Below are positions 15,338 to 21,709 of a stretch of 64,000 nt of DNA, piece by piece (the stretch's first letter is position 1; each line of letters opens with the position of its first letter). Both the position numbers and the translations under genes were made by a program. The DNA comes from Rheinheimera pacifica. Lineage in GTDB: Bacteria; Pseudomonadota; Gammaproteobacteria; Enterobacterales; Alteromonadaceae. The notes under the pieces are model-generated. The model was not told where the DNA came from. It made no database searches and saw nothing but the letters and a program-made list of their open reading frames with translations. The DNA is taken from the NCBI RefSeq assembly GCF_900108485.1, contig NZ_FNXF01000001.1, forward strand, positions 434,001 through 498,000, given 5' to 3'.

Positions 15338-16672
15338 TTGCTATCGATATTACTTGTAGATGATGACCACGAATTCACTGAAGTTGCCTCCCGCATTATA
15401 GATTTTCTGGGGCATACCGTGTCTGTCGCTGGCAGTTTAGCCGAAGCGAATGAGTGGCTTGAGCACAATAGTTTTGACCATATTCTGCTCGACTTTATGC
15501 TGCCAGACGGCAGCGGTATCCATTTGATGGATAGAGTCCAGCACCTGTTTCCTGTTCCCAAAGTCACCTTTATTACCGGGCACCCGTCGGTAAAATCCAT
15601 CATTGCTGAGCTGTGTGGGCCCAAAGTAGATTATTTGTTAAAGCCGATACAGCGTGAGTGTTTAGAGCGGGTGCTTAACCCGGCCAGGCAAAAAGCGAAA
15701 AAATCGTCGGCTGCTCAGTTTGAGTTGCATTTTGGTTGTCTGATTGGCGAGTCGGCGCCGATGCAAGCACTGTACACCATGATTGAGCGTGTCGCTGCAT
15801 CGAAGGCTAACGTGATGTTGTTGGGCGAAAGTGGCGTGGGTAAGGAACTGGTTGCTTCAGCCATTCATCATGCCAGCAAGACTGCCGGTGCCTTAGTTGC
15901 CACAAACTGTGGCGGCTTATCGAAAGAGCTGATCAGTAGCGAGCTGTTTGGCCATGAAAAAGGTGCTTTTACCGGCGCAGTCGCGCAAAAAACCGGTGTT
16001 TTTGAGCGTGCTCAGGGCGGCACATTATTTTTAGATGAAGTAACCGAAATGCCGCTCGATATGCAACCGCACTTATTGCGGGTATTAGAGACGAAAAAAA
16101 TTGTCCGTGTAGGTGGCAGTAAAGAAATTGCTGTAGATTGCCGGGTAGTATCGGCCACTAACCGAAGCCTGGAAAATATTGCCGAAAAAAATATTCTGCG
16201 GGAAGATATTTATTTTCGCCTGGCAGTATTTCCGATTGAAATTCCGCCGCTCAGAGAGCGTGCTGCAGACATCCCGCTGTTAGCAAAAGCGTTTTTAGCC
16301 AGCTTAAATGACGAGAACGGCACAAACTACCAATTTAGCCACGCCCAGCTGCAGCGGCTGGCCAGCTTTGATTGGCCGGGTAACGTCAGAGAGCTGCGCC
16401 ATACAGTGCACCGCGCTTACATTATGAGTGATCCTGCTAAGGATGAGATTGAATTACCCGCCTCGTTTGCGTCTCCGTTTTCTGCGGTACAGAAAGAAAA
16501 ATCCGGCCTGACGGCGGGCAAAACCATTGATGAAGTCGAGAGAGAGTTAATTTACCTGACATTAAAAAAAGTTGGCGGAAACAAAGCTATGGCTGCCGAT
16601 ATGTTGGGGGTAAGTGTGAAAACCTTGTACAACCGGTTAAGTGCCTACGGTGGCTTAGGGGAATTTAGCTAG
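15338..16672 (+). CDS. NtrC-family sigma-54-dependent response regulator
   Basis: A 444-residue two-component activator. Receiver domain 1-115 with DDD at 8-10, phospho-acceptor Asp52 and Lys102. AAA+ sigma-54 contact domain ~130-365 with Walker A GESGVGKE (163-170), the sigma-54-binding loop GAFTGA (209-214) and Walker B FLDE (231-234). A Fis-type helix-turn-helix lies at ~405-438. All key residues are intact, so it should activate sigma-54 promoters. The start is TTG: an in-frame TGA at 15332 leaves no room for an earlier start, and the receiver's first strand begins at residue 3. First gene of a five-gene signalling run; its targets are not visible. Confidence 0.9.
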   Translation: MLSILLVDDDHEFTEVASRIIDFLGHTVSVAGSLAEANEWLEHNSFDHILLDFMLPDGSGIHLMDRVQHLFPVPKVTFITGHPSVKSIIAELCGPKVDYLLKPIQRECLERVLNPARQKAKKSSAAQFELHFGCLIGESAPMQALYTMIERVAASKANVMLLGESGVGKELVASAIHHASKTAGALVATNCGGLSKELISSELFGHEKGAFTGAVAQKTGVFERAQGGTLFLDEVTEMPLDMQPHLLRVLETKKIVRVGGSKEIAVDCRVVSATNRSLENIAEKNILREDIYFRLAVFPIEIPPLRERAADIPLLAKAFLASLNDENGTNYQFSHAQLQRLASFDWPGNVRELRHTVHRAYIMSDPAKDEIELPASFASPFSAVQKEKSGLTAGKTIDEVERELIYLTLKKVGGNKAMAADMLGVSVKTLYNRLSAYGGLGEFS

Positions 16673-16692
16673 TTATTAACTGGGAGAATGTA

Positions 16693-16902
16693 ATGTCTGA
16701 CGCGAAAGTGGCTGAGTTAGCTAAGCAAGTGCATGATATTCGCAAGCCGCTGAATCGGATCTCGATGCAGGCAGAGTTAATTAAGCTGGTACTGGAAAAC
16801 AATTTGCCGCCGCAAAAAGCGATTGAAGCGGTGGATAAAATATTGCAGTCCTGCCAGGACTGTAGTCAGTTACTGGAAAACTTGTCAGATCCATCAGCGT
16901 GA
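16693..16902 (+). CDS. Free-standing histidine-kinase DHp (HisKA-like) mini-protein
   Basis: A 69-residue soluble protein with an excellent GGGAGA ribosome binding site. Residues 12-28 read as a histidine-kinase H-box (VHDIRKPLNRI, His14 in the phosphorylation position). A turn (NNLPP) and a second amphipathic helix to residue 64 complete the two-helix hairpin of a DHp domain. No ATP-binding domain follows: the frame stops and the next gene starts 29 bases on. It could act as a phosphotransfer intermediate, as ChpT or Spo0B do, or as a dimerisation inhibitor of the kinases beside it. Both are inference. Confidence 0.75.
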   Translation: MSDAKVAELAKQVHDIRKPLNRISMQAELIKLVLENNLPPQKAIEAVDKILQSCQDCSQLLENLSDPSA

Positions 16903-16931: not shown

Positions 16932-18413
16932 ATGTCAGGCAATCTGTTAAACGGCCGTACCAGCTGGTTTTTACTGGGGGCGGTGATGATGTGCCTGATT
17001 GGCTTCAATGCCTATCTGGCAATCAGTTCGATTAAAGAGCTAACCGCTACGCAAATCAGTTTGACCAACACCGGCGATAATATTGTCAAACTTGATGATT
17101 TGCATTTGTCGATATTGTCAGCCGAGTCTGGCCAGCGGGGTTACCTACTGACAGATAATATCATCTACCTGGAGCCTTACCAGGCGGCATTAAGCCGGGT
17201 AAAAACGCAAATGGCCGAAGTTCAGGCTATTGAATCTGAGATACCGGAGCAACAACCGCGCATCAATGAGATTGTCCGGTTAGCTGACGCAAAAATTGCA
17301 GAACTAACTGAAATAGTCGGGCTGGCACAGCAAAATAAAGATGCGTTGGCGCTCAGATTACTAAAAACTAATCGCGGCAAGAATATTTATCTGGAGTTCC
17401 GGGCATTATTTGATGTCACCCGCCAGGTAGAACAATCTTACCGCGAAAGCTTGTTTCTGCGCCTGACTAAAGGGCGGGCCGATGCCCAGCTTAACTTTAT
17501 TTTATTTGGCGTACTGAGCAGTGTGCTGGTGATACTGATGCTGATCCTGTCATCTAGTAATGTAAAGAAAGAGCGAAAGTATCTGGCTGCACTGGAAAGC
17601 AAGAACGAAGAGCTGGCGCTGAAAGTGGAAGAGCGCACACAGGAATTACGCCTGTATTCGGAAGAATTAAGCCGTAGCAACCGGGAGCTGGAGGATTTTG
17701 CCTTTGTTGCATCCCATGACTTGCAGGAACCATTGCGAAAAATTCAGGCCTTTGGTGATCGCCTGGAGGCGTCATTTAGTCAGGAATTGGGCGAGAAAGG
17801 CCTGGACTATATGAAACGTATGCGTAACGCGGCGCAAAGAATGTCGCTGTTAATCAATGATTTATTGGATTTCTCCCGCATAAATACCCGCGGCCGGGAT
17901 TTTACACCTACCAATTTAACTGACGTGGTTAATGGTGCACTTGACGATGTTGAAATTGCCATTCAGGAAAGCAATGCCCAAATCAATATAGGTACTTTAC
18001 CGATAATACAGGCTGATAGCAGTCAGCTTAGTCAGCTGTTTCTTAATCTGTTGTCAAATTCGCTGAAGTTCCGCCTACCGGACAGAACACCGGTTATTAC
18101 TATTACTGCTGCAGTGCACCAGCCTAATATTATGCAGCAGGCCATTTGCCCGGATTGGCATGTAATAACGCTGACAGACAACGGCATTGGCTTTGCAATA
18201 GAGTATGCCGAGAAAATTTTTACACCGTTTCAACGCCTGCATGGCCGTTCAGAATATAAAGGAACCGGTATTGGCCTGGCAGTATGCCGGCGGATTGTAG
18301 AAAGACACAGAGGGTTAATTTACGCATCGGGTGAGCCTGGGGTTGGCGCCACTTTTACATTAATTTTGCCTGCCGACGGCACACCGTTTGGCAGCAGGGG
18401 AGAAACTGAATAA
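16932..18413 (+). CDS. CHASE3-domain sensor histidine kinase (phytochrome-kinase type)
   Basis: A 493-residue membrane kinase. Transmembrane segments at ~11-31 and ~189-207 enclose a helical CHASE3 sensor (~35-180; the ESGQRGYLLT signature at 65-74 is typical). A coiled coil (~210-255) leads to the DHp domain FAFVASHDLQEPLRKIQAF with His262. The HATPase domain has NLLSNSLKF, DNGIGF and GTGIGLAVCRR. The DHp type is the one seen in phytochrome-like kinases that pair with Rcp1 regulators, and such a regulator is the next gene, overlapping by one base (TAATG). Signal unknown. Confidence 0.9.
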   Translation: MSGNLLNGRTSWFLLGAVMMCLIGFNAYLAISSIKELTATQISLTNTGDNIVKLDDLHLSILSAESGQRGYLLTDNIIYLEPYQAALSRVKTQMAEVQAIESEIPEQQPRINEIVRLADAKIAELTEIVGLAQQNKDALALRLLKTNRGKNIYLEFRALFDVTRQVEQSYRESLFLRLTKGRADAQLNFILFGVLSSVLVILMLILSSSNVKKERKYLAALESKNEELALKVEERTQELRLYSEELSRSNRELEDFAFVASHDLQEPLRKIQAFGDRLEASFSQELGEKGLDYMKRMRNAAQRMSLLINDLLDFSRINTRGRDFTPTNLTDVVNGALDDVEIAIQESNAQINIGTLPIIQADSSQLSQLFLNLLSNSLKFRLPDRTPVITITAAVHQPNIMQQAICPDWHVITLTDNGIGFAIEYAEKIFTPFQRLHGRSEYKGTGIGLAVCRRIVERHRGLIYASGEPGVGATFTLILPADGTPFGSRGETE

Positions 18414-18874
18414 TGCCACTTACCAAAACACGGCCAATTACTATTTTAATGGCTGATGATGATGAAGATGATCGATTACTGACACAGGATGCGCTGCGCG
18501 AAAGCCGGGTGCTTAATTCATTGTATTGTGTTGAAGACGGCGTAGAGTTACTAGAATATCTGCGCAAAGAAGGCAAATATGCCACCGGCGTACCCTGTCC
18601 GCGGCCCAGCCTGATATTACTGGATTTAAATATGCCACGGATGGATGGCCGTGAAGCACTGCATAATATAAAAAGTGACGATAATTTGCGGGGTATTCCT
18701 ATCGTTATTCTTACCACGTCAAAACAAGAAGAAGACATGGTGCGGGGTTATAATTTAGGCGCAGCGTCGTATATCACCAAGCCGGTAAACTTTGAGGGCC
18801 TGGTAGAGCTAATGCGCACCCTGGGTAAGTATTGGGTAGAGTTTGTTGAGTTACCAGTACAAGATAATGACTAA
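18413..18874 (+). CDS. Rcp1-type single-domain response regulator
   Basis: A 153-residue stand-alone receiver: DDDEDD acidic pocket at 15-20, Asp71 in LLDLNMPRMDG, Lys123 in ITKPV. The long loop before Asp71 (residues 52-65) and the extra C-terminal helix mark the Rcp1 subfamily, partners of phytochrome-type kinases. It has no output domain, so it probably relays phosphate or acts by protein contact. Start codon overlaps the CHASE3 kinase stop, and its 3' end overlaps the next gene by eight bases. Confidence 0.9.
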   Translation: MPLTKTRPITILMADDDEDDRLLTQDALRESRVLNSLYCVEDGVELLEYLRKEGKYATGVPCPRPSLILLDLNMPRMDGREALHNIKSDDNLRGIPIVILTTSKQEEDMVRGYNLGAASYITKPVNFEGLVELMRTLGKYWVEFVELPVQDND

Positions 18875-20843
18875 ACAGGTAAAGCCGGTTCTACAGGCAA
18901 AAATCCTTCTGGTAGAAGACGATGAAGATGACTACATCATTACCCGTAGTCATCTGGAAGAATTAACCTCGTTTGACAGCCATCTGACGTGGGTAACAAA
19001 CTCAGTCGAAGGATTACAAAAGCTAACCGAAGGCAACTTTGATGTCTGTCTGCTGGATTACCAATTAGGCGCTGAAACCGGTTTATCGTTGTTAAAACAG
19101 GCAGTAGAGAGCGGCATATCTACACCCATTATTATGCTTACCGGCCAACCGGATAAGCAGCTTGATTTACAGGCACTGGAATATGGTGCGGCAGACTTTT
19201 TAGTAAAAAGCGAACTGAGTGAAGCAAGGTTTGCCCGGGCAATACGCTACGCATTAAGCCGCCGGGAATTTGAACTGGAACGTTTAAACCGGCTTAGGCT
19301 TGAAGCGGATAACAGATCAAAAGATCGGTTTTTAGCCCACCTGAGTCATGAGCTCAGAACGCCGTTATCTTCAATTTTGGGCTACACCGAGTTACTGCTT
19401 GAATCAAACCATACCGAAGACGCGCGGCCAGAGCTGAATATCATCCTGAATAATGGCAAGCATTTGCTGAGTTTGTTAAACGATATTCTCGACCTGTCCA
19501 AAATTACAGCGAACAAACTGGAGCTACGGCCAGAACCCACCAGTTTACGTCACCTGATATTGGATATTTATACCCTGCTTAAAGTTACCGCTATCGATAA
19601 CGGGTTGGAGCTAACCTTTAATTCGTTAACCCCGTTACCGGTGCTTATTACTGTCGATGGCACGCGCTTACGCCAGGTATTAATAAATTTGATTTATAAC
19701 GCCATCAAATTTACTGATGCTGGCAGTATCACCGTTGACCTGTGGACACAGCAAGACGCAGCAAAAGAAATGTTGATGTTTCGCATAACTGATACCGGTG
19801 TGGGCATTCCGCAGCGACAACTTAAAGATATTTTTGCGCCCTTTACCCAGATAGAAGATTACCTTACCCGGAAAAAAGGCGGCGCAGGCCTGGGGTTGGC
19901 CATTTCAGCAGAGCTTATTCAGCGTATGGGGGGCCGCATTGATGTGGCGTCTGAAGAAGGAAAAGGCAGTGTATTTACCTTTTCGCTGGATCCAGGCGAT
20001 ATAACGGATACCCAGCGCAAACCATTGAGCCTGGAACCGTCACTTAACAATAATGGTGGCGCGCACAGTAAGCTGGCTTTAACCGGCGAGGTGCTTATCG
20101 TTGATGATTTGGCTGACCTGCGCAAGCTGTCTGCACATTGGATCCAGGCTACAGGCGCCTCAGTAGACTTTGCTGTAAACGGCGCTGAAGCAATTGCCAA
20201 GGTAAAACACAAAATAGCATCAGGCAGCTATTACGATCTGATCCTGATGGATTTACACATGCCAGGCATGGGGGGCAGAGAAGCGACGGTAGCTATCCGC
20301 GAAACGGGCTATCAGTATCCGGTGGTTGCGCTTACTGCGGCAATGGCGAAGGGGATCCGCCAGCAGCTAACGGCGTTGGGTTTTAATGATGTGCTGTCCA
20401 AACCGATCACGAAGAATCAGTTGTACCGTGCATTACGCTGCTATTTAACCGGCAATTCGGCATTAACAGATAACAGCGCAGCAGATAGTCTGCCGCTGCA
20501 TTTCCTGGTGGTAGAAGATGATACTGAAGCTGCACAATTAATGCAGATACTGCTAGAAAGCCTGGGGGTGAAAACCACACTGGCACACAGTGCAGAAGAG
20601 TGTATGCGCGAACTGGCCTTACTGCACCGGTTTGACAGAATTTTGCTTGATCTGGGGCTGCCAGATAGTGATGGATTGCAGCTTATCGAGCGCATCGAGC
20701 ATAACTATCCTGACAATATTGTGATTGTGGTAAGTGGACATGAGCATGATATTGCTGCATCCGGCAGCGCCATCGTCCAGCAGAGTTTGTTAAAACCTAT
20801 CACTAAACAGGCCCTAAACAGCTTAGTGTTAACATGCCGCTAA
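18867..20843 (+). CDS. Hybrid kinase REC-HisKA-HATPase-REC-REC
   Basis: A 658-residue soluble hybrid with no membrane segment. REC1 (residues 10-130) has Asp64. A linker helix leads to the H-box HLSHELRTP with His161, the HATPase (NLIYNAIKF, DTGVGI, GAGLGLAIS), REC2 (about 407-525, Asp462) and REC3 (about 545-658, Asp595). All three acceptor Asp residues and the His are intact. In REC1 the usual Lys-Pro is Lys-Ser (VKSELS). The start is taken at ATG 18867, not the open frame 24 bases upstream, because the receiver strand starts right after. It overlaps the Rcp1-type gene by eight bases and probably integrates its phosphate state with other kinases. Confidence 0.9.
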   Translation: MTKQVKPVLQAKILLVEDDEDDYIITRSHLEELTSFDSHLTWVTNSVEGLQKLTEGNFDVCLLDYQLGAETGLSLLKQAVESGISTPIIMLTGQPDKQLDLQALEYGAADFLVKSELSEARFARAIRYALSRREFELERLNRLRLEADNRSKDRFLAHLSHELRTPLSSILGYTELLLESNHTEDARPELNIILNNGKHLLSLLNDILDLSKITANKLELRPEPTSLRHLILDIYTLLKVTAIDNGLELTFNSLTPLPVLITVDGTRLRQVLINLIYNAIKFTDAGSITVDLWTQQDAAKEMLMFRITDTGVGIPQRQLKDIFAPFTQIEDYLTRKKGGAGLGLAISAELIQRMGGRIDVASEEGKGSVFTFSLDPGDITDTQRKPLSLEPSLNNNGGAHSKLALTGEVLIVDDLADLRKLSAHWIQATGASVDFAVNGAEAIAKVKHKIASGSYYDLILMDLHMPGMGGREATVAIRETGYQYPVVALTAAMAKGIRQQLTALGFNDVLSKPITKNQLYRALRCYLTGNSALTDNSAADSLPLHFLVVEDDTEAAQLMQILLESLGVKTTLAHSAEECMRELALLHRFDRILLDLGLPDSDGLQLIERIEHNYPDNIVIVVSGHEHDIAASGSAIVQQSLLKPITKQALNSLVLTCR

Positions 20844-20974: not shown

Positions 20975-21127
20975 GGCTTAAAATCGGTCCAGAAAAATAA
21001 TTTTAATTTAAGTGTTTGATTTATAATGTCTTATTTTTATTTTAAAAAGTGGTACAAAGCTTGTAACCGTTAACGCGAACTAAGGCCAAAGTGCCGATTA
21101 CTATTAGCTGATTTAACGGAGTTTATA

Positions 21128-21709
21128 ATGAGAAAGTCATTTTTAGCTGTATTAACTGCATCTTCTCTTATCGCCACCTCGGCTTATGCCGCTACACCGC
21201 AAGAAGATATTGATCATATGGGGATCTACGTTGGCGCCGCCTATGGCTTACTGAAAGTAGACGGTGATGACCAGGATTTTGATGAAGAAGATAACGCTAG
21301 CCGGTATTTTGTCGGCGCCCAATTTAATCAGGTGCTGTCTTTAGAAGGTGGTTACATTGACTTTGGTAATTATGGTAACAGCATTTTTAACACAGATTTA
21401 GATGGTTACACTCTGGCGTTAAAAGCCGGTTTACCGGTAACCGAGCGTTTCACTGTGTATGCACAGGGCGGTAATATTTGGTGGAAAGCCGACATTAATG
21501 CCACCGATGACAGCGCGGATGTGGATGGCTCAGACATATTTTATGGTGTAGGAGTGTCTTTTGCCCTGACGCAGAATCTGGCTCTTCGTCTGGAATACAC
21601 CCGCTTTGATGTAGAATTTGACCGTGATGAGATTGGCATCCTGGCCGAGATTGATAGCTTCGATACCAAAGTGGACTACGCCAGTATCGGCATTCAGTAC
21701 ACCTTTTAA
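21128..21709 (+). CDS. Small outer-membrane beta-barrel protein
   Basis: A 193-residue protein with a signal peptide (1-21, SAYA before Ala22). The mature part is an eight-stranded barrel in the OmpA-like/porin-family style: IYVGAAYGLLKV first strand, RYFVGAQFN, LALRLEYTRFDV, and a final strand SIGIQYTF ending in Phe. Strand-connecting loops are strongly acidic (DGDDQDFDEEDN). It has an AACGGAG ribosome binding site. Function is unknown; acidic loops could bind cations. Single gene with its own promoter and hairpin. Confidence 0.8.
   Translation: MRKSFLAVLTASSLIATSAYAATPQEDIDHMGIYVGAAYGLLKVDGDDQDFDEEDNASRYFVGAQFNQVLSLEGGYIDFGNYGNSIFNTDLDGYTLALKAGLPVTERFTVYAQGGNIWWKADINATDDSADVDGSDIFYGVGVSFALTQNLALRLEYTRFDVEFDRDEIGILAEIDSFDTKVDYASIGIQYTF

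Follow-up and report, generated by a model that had tools for sequence, protein, structure and literature searches.

The 64,000-nucleotide stretch of Rheinheimera pacifica DNA analyzed here (the window) contains a genuine gene whose 69-residue product, named sDHp, is a HisKA/DHp hairpin without any further domain. We propose that sDHp is probably a minimal dimeric histidine phosphotransferase, which would pass phosphate from a receiver (REC) of a hybrid kinase to an NtrC-type regulator encoded in the same operon. The relevant features are as follows.

15338..16672, + strand, NtrC-type response regulator: REC with Asp52, sigma-54 AAA+ domain with GAFTGA, Fis-type HTH; constant neighbor of sDHp
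16693..16902, + strand, sDHp, small stand-alone DHp protein of 69 aa: phospho-acceptor His14, H+1 Asp15, H+4 Lys18
16932..18413, + strand, CHASE3-HisKA-HATPase kinase: His262
18413..18874, + strand, single-domain receiver protein (Rcp): Asp71
18843..20843, + strand, hybrid kinase REC1-HisKA-HATPase-REC2-REC3: no HPt domain
21050..21065, + strand, sigma-54 -24/-12-like motif TGGTAC-N5-TTGTA: candidate local target promoter
21128..21709, + strand, OmpA-like outer-membrane barrel gene just after the operon: candidate target

Identification of a Stand-Alone DHp Gene

The reading frame of sDHp begins with ATG, and the sequence GGGAG (16682-16686) lies 7-11 nt 5' of this start. A gap of 20 nt separates the gene from the stop of the regulator gene upstream, and another of 29 nt from the CHASE3 kinase gene downstream. 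The first-pass annotation of this DNA had described a DHp domain encoded alone in 69 residues, with the H-box His14 in VHDIRKPLNRI, between an NtrC-type regulator and a CHASE3 kinase, all of which was confirmed. In the search that it had suggested, with the Pfam HisKA profile (PF00512), sDHp scored 33.8 bits (E = 3.5e-8), above the gathering cut-off of 26.9. No Pfam match to HATPase was found in the 69 residues, and sDHp, lacking this domain in its own protein, falls outside the histidine kinases by membership.

All 28 aligned sDHp orthologues match HisKA at E <= 1. For sDHp itself, no match at E <= 10 was obtained with Hpt (PF01627), a search in which the HMMER filters drop most weak matches, or with the Pfam families of Spo0B, ChpT, and PhyT (SPOB_a and HPTransfase). 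Hpt and SPOB_a were also absent among the families listed (25 of 35) for 28 sDHp members; one relative, L107, matched SPOB_a under the cut-off (E = 0.087). In the whole genome of the window, 45 HisKA matches were detected (E <= 0.01), and sDHp is unique among them in having a short frame, of 77 codons; no other frame has fewer than 299.

An AlphaFold2 model of the single chain, based on 24 aligned sequences, predicted two helices (residues 3-35 and 40-65) with a mean pLDDT of 92. The first-pass annotation had made its reading depend on the prediction of a helical-hairpin dimer; the hairpin part of this expectation is borne out by the single-chain model. The second helix ends four residues before the C-terminus, which leaves no room for an ATPase-like domain. 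Structural superposition gave 2.1 A over 68 residues for HK853 and 1.8 A over 67 residues for the EnvZ chimera 4kp4. Many unrelated two-helix hairpins reach an equal Z, so the structure comparison supports the fold only; what sets HK853 and the EnvZ chimera apart from them is 28% sequence identity in each case.

Selection on the gene was estimated from eight Rheinheimera-group sequences. dS was computable for 19 of the 28 pairs, whose dN/dS ratios lie between 0 and 0.20; the other nine were saturated, and pairs with L027 are near saturation. Judged from these ratios, sDHp is under purifying selection. The missing ATPase domain could suggest the leftover of a broken kinase, and a frameshifted remnant had indeed been named by the first-pass annotation as a reading that would overturn its own. 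Conservation refutes this, and its probability is practically nil: in addition to the low dN/dS, stand-alone orthologues occur in other genomes, with frames all of 70-124 aa, the next gene is only 29 nt away, and the closest other match in the same genome is 31% identical.

Distribution and Co-inheritance with the NtrC-Type Regulator

A single-protein scan of genome contigs detected 27 relatives of sDHp, in Rheinheimera, Arsukibacterium, Colwellia, Pseudocolwellia, Cognaticolwellia, Alteromonas, Thalassotalea, Paraglaciecola, Glaciecola, Catenovulum, Ningiella, and Pseudoalteromonas, plus one MAG. Within the family of the window, 56 of 196 genomes match the sDHp profile; 53 of these have a stand-alone copy, and in the remaining three every match falls within a frame of 492-560 aa. 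The order scan, which partly covers the same genomes, yielded matches in 25 of 394 genomes (stand-alone in 23). The class scan matched 12 of 369 genomes, stand-alone copies being confined to two members of the window's family (G000 and G077); one of the matches lies in a 173-aa frame and covers model positions 22-59 only. In the phylum scan, 16 of 299 genomes matched and six had stand-alone copies, one of them (G1100) from another order of the same class, where sDHp is accompanied by the whole operon. A second profile matched 35 of 258 genomes, with a short frame in the window genome only.

The genomes with stand-alone sDHp are exactly those with an orthologue of the NtrC-type regulator (E <= 1e-100): in the family, 53 of 196 genomes belong to both sets and none to only one (empty symmetric difference), the three genomes with only kinase-length profile matches being left out. 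The single receiver, which we take to be Rcp1-like, is present (E <= 1e-40) in 51 of the 53 genomes and in five others. The two genomes without a match are G072, which has a fused hybrid, and G106, whose receiver has diverged (46% identity).

The usual gene order is NtrC-type regulator, sDHp, CHASE3 kinase, single receiver, and REC-HK-REC-REC hybrid kinase. Among 85 sDHp ORFs from fetched loci (some genomes are represented twice, and one ORF is a truncated plasmid copy), the NtrC gene is directly upstream of 80, with a median gap of 15.5 nt by mechanical starts, and the CHASE3 kinase gene is downstream of 76. The five ORFs without an NtrC gene are all preceded by a REC-GGDEF regulator according to Pfam.

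Second copies of sDHp were found in eight family genomes, each of which also has a main copy. Context was read for six second copies, namely five of these eight (four GGDEF, one NtrC) and that of G336 from the order scan (GGDEF), leaving out G141, G191, and G210: five follow a REC-GGDEF regulator and one follows a second NtrC-type regulator. At L100, L102, L103, L104, and L115, a second small DHp family stands directly after REC-GGDEF regulators. These GGDEF-linked paralogues have the H-box HNVRNPLNS or similar, with Asn at H+4 and, in the five, Asn or Ser at H+1, and every genome in which they were seen has a main-type copy too.

Small DHp pieces and an incomplete NtrC gene (72% identical) are also present on the Escherichia coli IncC plasmid pB39_C (L118, 4826-6201), with a Tn3 transposase on one side and erm(42) on the other, and are not annotated in that record. 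This suggests that the plasmid DNA adjoining the pieces came from a Rheinheimera-like chromosome.

Conserved Residues and Their Chemistry

To compare residues, 86 places with sDHp (window included) were reduced to 72 in which none of the five genes is missing and both the regulator and the hybrid are full-length, and then to 61 non-redundant operons. Paralogues, cut loci, L118, L107, L109, and the G032 and G034 loci were left out. In the latter two (L130 and L166, respectively), the hybrid kinase gene is interrupted, by mutation or assembly error, and the sDHp frame is intact; in G034 the NtrC gene is interrupted as well.

His14, on whose conservation the first-pass annotation had also staked its reading, is invariant in all 61 operons, as are Arg17, Asn21, Glu28, and Ile50; Ser24, Met25, and Ala27 have one exception each. 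Every one of the 61 operons also retains the five receiver Asp residues, both kinase His residues, and the GAFTGA loop, whose second position is A in 54 and S in seven.

The two positions that govern HisKA chemistry behave differently in sDHp. According to PMC3510030, HisKA kinases need an acidic residue at H+1 for kinase activity and Thr or Asn at H+4 for phosphatase activity. Asp15 at H+1 is kept in 59 of 61 operons. The H+4 position, which is Lys in the window where HisKA kinases have Thr or Asn, varies (K in 26, G in 15, A in nine, N in six, and others). Because of this variation, we conclude that selection has not retained HisKA phosphatase chemistry in the main sDHp clade.

The conserved Asp15, a residue for autokinase chemistry rather than for relay, is a point against the phosphotransferase reading. 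It would fit a split kinase, in which the ATPase domain of either neighboring kinase phosphorylates sDHp in trans and the phosphate then goes to the regulator. ChpT and Spo0B, however, also keep HD at their H-box. In addition, the five GGDEF-linked paralogues lack the acidic residue, and a split kinase would leave REC2 and REC3 of the hybrid without an onward partner in the operon. We therefore regard a split kinase as improbable.

Assignment of Partners and the Proposed Phosphorelay

The receivers of the operon were compared with one another to assign partners. In alpha-1, REC1 of the hybrid and the single receiver are mutually nearest in all 61 operons. As REC1 and Rcp share this surface, the CHASE3 kinase probably feeds both. 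Among the four other receivers, REC3 is nearest to the NtrC receiver in 53 of 61 operons by whole-domain identity, and in 58 of 61 when alpha-1 is scored with BLOSUM. This likeness gives moderate support to a relay from REC3 through sDHp to the NtrC-type regulator. The resemblance is modest, with 27% identity between REC3 and the NtrC receiver versus 18-22%, and in the reverse direction the nearest alpha-1 to that of REC3 is split evenly between NtrC and REC1 (29 of 61 each), both of which weaken the assignment.

Mutual information between sDHp and each neighbor, calculated from the 61 operons (effective number 34, with relatedness dominating), singled out no partner, which also counts against the relay. 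A charge match between Arg22 of sDHp and receiver position 13 was considered as partner evidence: Arg is paired with Glu in all 49 loci with Arg22, and Glu occurs in eight of the 12 others. It was dropped since nearly all receivers are acidic at this position (NtrC in 59 and REC2 in 60 of 61; REC1, REC3, and Rcp in all 61). The receivers of the GGDEF regulators share no alpha-1 with REC3 or the NtrC receiver, their nearest being the single receiver; that sDHp paralogues are paired with such receivers is a further point against the relay. Moreover, nine Hpt matches were found elsewhere in the window genome, one of them in a 165-aa frame, and such a protein could serve the hybrid instead.

On balance, we favor the phosphotransferase, based on its exact co-occurrence with the regulator, the unvaried His, the intact phospho-sites of its neighbors, and the natural simplification of the operon described below. 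In the proposed scheme, two sDHp hairpins would form a four-helix DHp bundle. The CHASE3 kinase probably feeds Rcp and REC1, and REC1 would control the second kinase. His14 would accept phosphate from a receiver of the hybrid, most likely REC3, and Asp52 of the NtrC-type regulator would be the next acceptor; the phosphorylated regulator would then activate sigma-54 promoters. sDHp would thereby fill the HPt slot as Spo0B, ChpT, and PhyT do, dispensing with an ATPase-like domain. The first-pass annotation had let sDHp shuttle phosphate among its four signaling neighbors; the shuttle is retained here as the favored function and narrowed to the route from hybrid receiver to NtrC-type regulator.

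Natural Rearrangements of the Operon

In G072, a single CHASE3-HisKA-HATPase-REC-REC hybrid replaces the last three genes, and sDHp and the NtrC-type regulator are kept. This set has the classic layout of hybrid kinase, HPt, and regulator, with sDHp in the HPt slot. G084 has the NtrC-sDHp pair on one contig and the kinase trio on another.

Five genomes without sDHp (G078, G101, G125, G152, and G217; two of them 85-87% complete) have a module of MASE3-HisKA-HATPase kinase and receiver. Its third gene encodes REC-GGDEF-EAL in four and is cut at a contig end after GGDEF in the fifth. The corresponding loci (L123-L127, L127 being the cut one) lack NtrC and sDHp, and represent the same input module connected to c-di-GMP domains. 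As these modules end in REC-GGDEF-EAL, no onward relay is needed. Taken together, the rearrangements indicate that sDHp accompanies a second, hybrid kinase whose signal has to get to a separate regulator, and is missing where the output is built into the receiver.

These layouts also bear on the view of sDHp as a brake, which would drain phosphate from the NtrC-type regulator via His14 (followed by hydrolysis or return to the hybrid) or act as a phosphatase. The constant pairing with the regulator and the Asn at H+4 of the GGDEF-linked paralogues would agree with it, and PhyT is described as acting both positively and negatively (PMC5898713). On the other hand, the phosphatase residue defined for HisKA (PMC3510030) is not kept in the main clade, and a pure brake leaves the five intact receivers and the simplification in G072 unexplained. 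A brake is therefore unlikely.

sDHp also occurs beside regulators without the kinase trio, at L107, in the second copy of L101, and at the five GGDEF loci. This distribution disfavors another suggestion of the first-pass annotation, that sDHp might hold a kinase in a mixed dimer, here taken to be inactive and independent of phosphate; the adjacency of a DHp hairpin to two HisKA kinases could be cited for it. A trap of this kind would have no use for the His, yet His14 never varies and the helix beneath it hardly does, and the RR-facing positions of sDHp are unlike those of both kinases. We consider it very improbable.

Extending the phosphotransferase reading, it is possible, if doubtful, that DHp-only phosphotransferases form a family with one member per regulator, which distributes phosphate from the two-kinase module to different outputs: an NtrC-type activator in all genomes and, in some, an added REC-GGDEF cyclase with its own sDHp. 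If so, this would be a case of a kinase reduced to its hairpin and doing the work of an HPt.

A Candidate Target Promoter

A motif similar to the -24/-12 consensus of sigma-54 promoters precedes the OmpA-like barrel gene in the window, and the same arrangement is found in all nine loci of the Rheinheimera group. In total, 17 of 61 loci have the motif in the first 250 nt after the operon and on its strand. The number expected from the rest of these sequences, which hold 31 matches over 1.31 Mb (both strands), is 0.36. Because the narrow pattern was drawn up once the motif had been noticed in Rheinheimera, the enrichment is post hoc; this and the kinship among the loci inflate the count. The other eight loci have the motif 108-169 nt after the operon, and in six, of Alteromonas type, an ORF of 106-114 aa is listed behind it. 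Four of these six ORFs (L031, L138, L152, and L161) have a DUF883-type C-terminus below the cut-off, which was not seen in those of L038 or L150. The motif is thus placed in the same way in two lineages with different genes.

The remaining 44 of 61 loci have no motif within 250 nt downstream of the operon. A general sigma-54 pattern with two mismatches gave 45 matches in the whole window versus 59 expected, which is not above chance, and a promoter and terminator scan revealed nothing decisive.

Comparison with Known Phosphotransferases

Among known proteins of this kind, Spo0B has a second domain, whereas sDHp does not. LuxU is a monomeric HPt bundle, and its gene follows that of its partner in the order luxO-luxU. 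Unlike LuxU, sDHp matches HisKA and not Hpt. In function, LuxU resembles what is proposed for sDHp: this small phosphotransfer protein connects the hybrids LuxQ, LuxN, and CqsS to LuxO (PMC8895600), a sigma-54 dependent regulator.

Spo0B, ChpT, and PhyT are phosphotransferases thought to be derived from kinases (PMC5898713). ChpT carries its His33 on a dimeric two-helix hairpin, similar to the DHp-type His of sDHp, for which a relay between receivers is proposed here. It retains an atypical ATP-binding fold, whereas sDHp ends after the hairpin; ChpT cannot autophosphorylate, and its altered domain is thought to affect partner recognition (PMC3433190). PhyT relays phosphate from SdrG to PhyR, a transfer between receivers like that proposed for sDHp, and has a degenerate ATPase domain of which sDHp has none (PMC5898713). 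ChpT and PhyT both keep a degenerate ATPase-like domain, which may or may not be needed for docking.

The closest parallel in size is the isolated DHp of EnvZ (residues 223-289), whose NMR structure as a four-helix-bundle subdomain is PDB 1JOY (PMC8320348). It comprises 67 residues of DHp alone, and its profile match with sDHp is weak (E = 0.36). The EnvZ piece is a laboratory fragment, whereas sDHp is a natural gene product.

Phosphotransferases are divided into HPt proteins and pseudo-kinases in a 2023 paper (PMC9981736). sDHp fits neither class, because it has no Hpt match and no second domain, and is most aptly described as a pseudo-kinase-type variant that consists of DHp only. In the open-access literature searched (subscription papers being outside its scope), we found no description of a DHp-only phosphotransferase. 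The proposed function would tie an apparently uncharacterized five-gene relay of Rheinheimera, Alteromonas, Colwellia, and their relatives to a likely local target, and would make a compact relay component available to structural and synthetic studies. Compared with ChpT and PhyT, a conserved natural version of 69 residues would show that the hairpin suffices.
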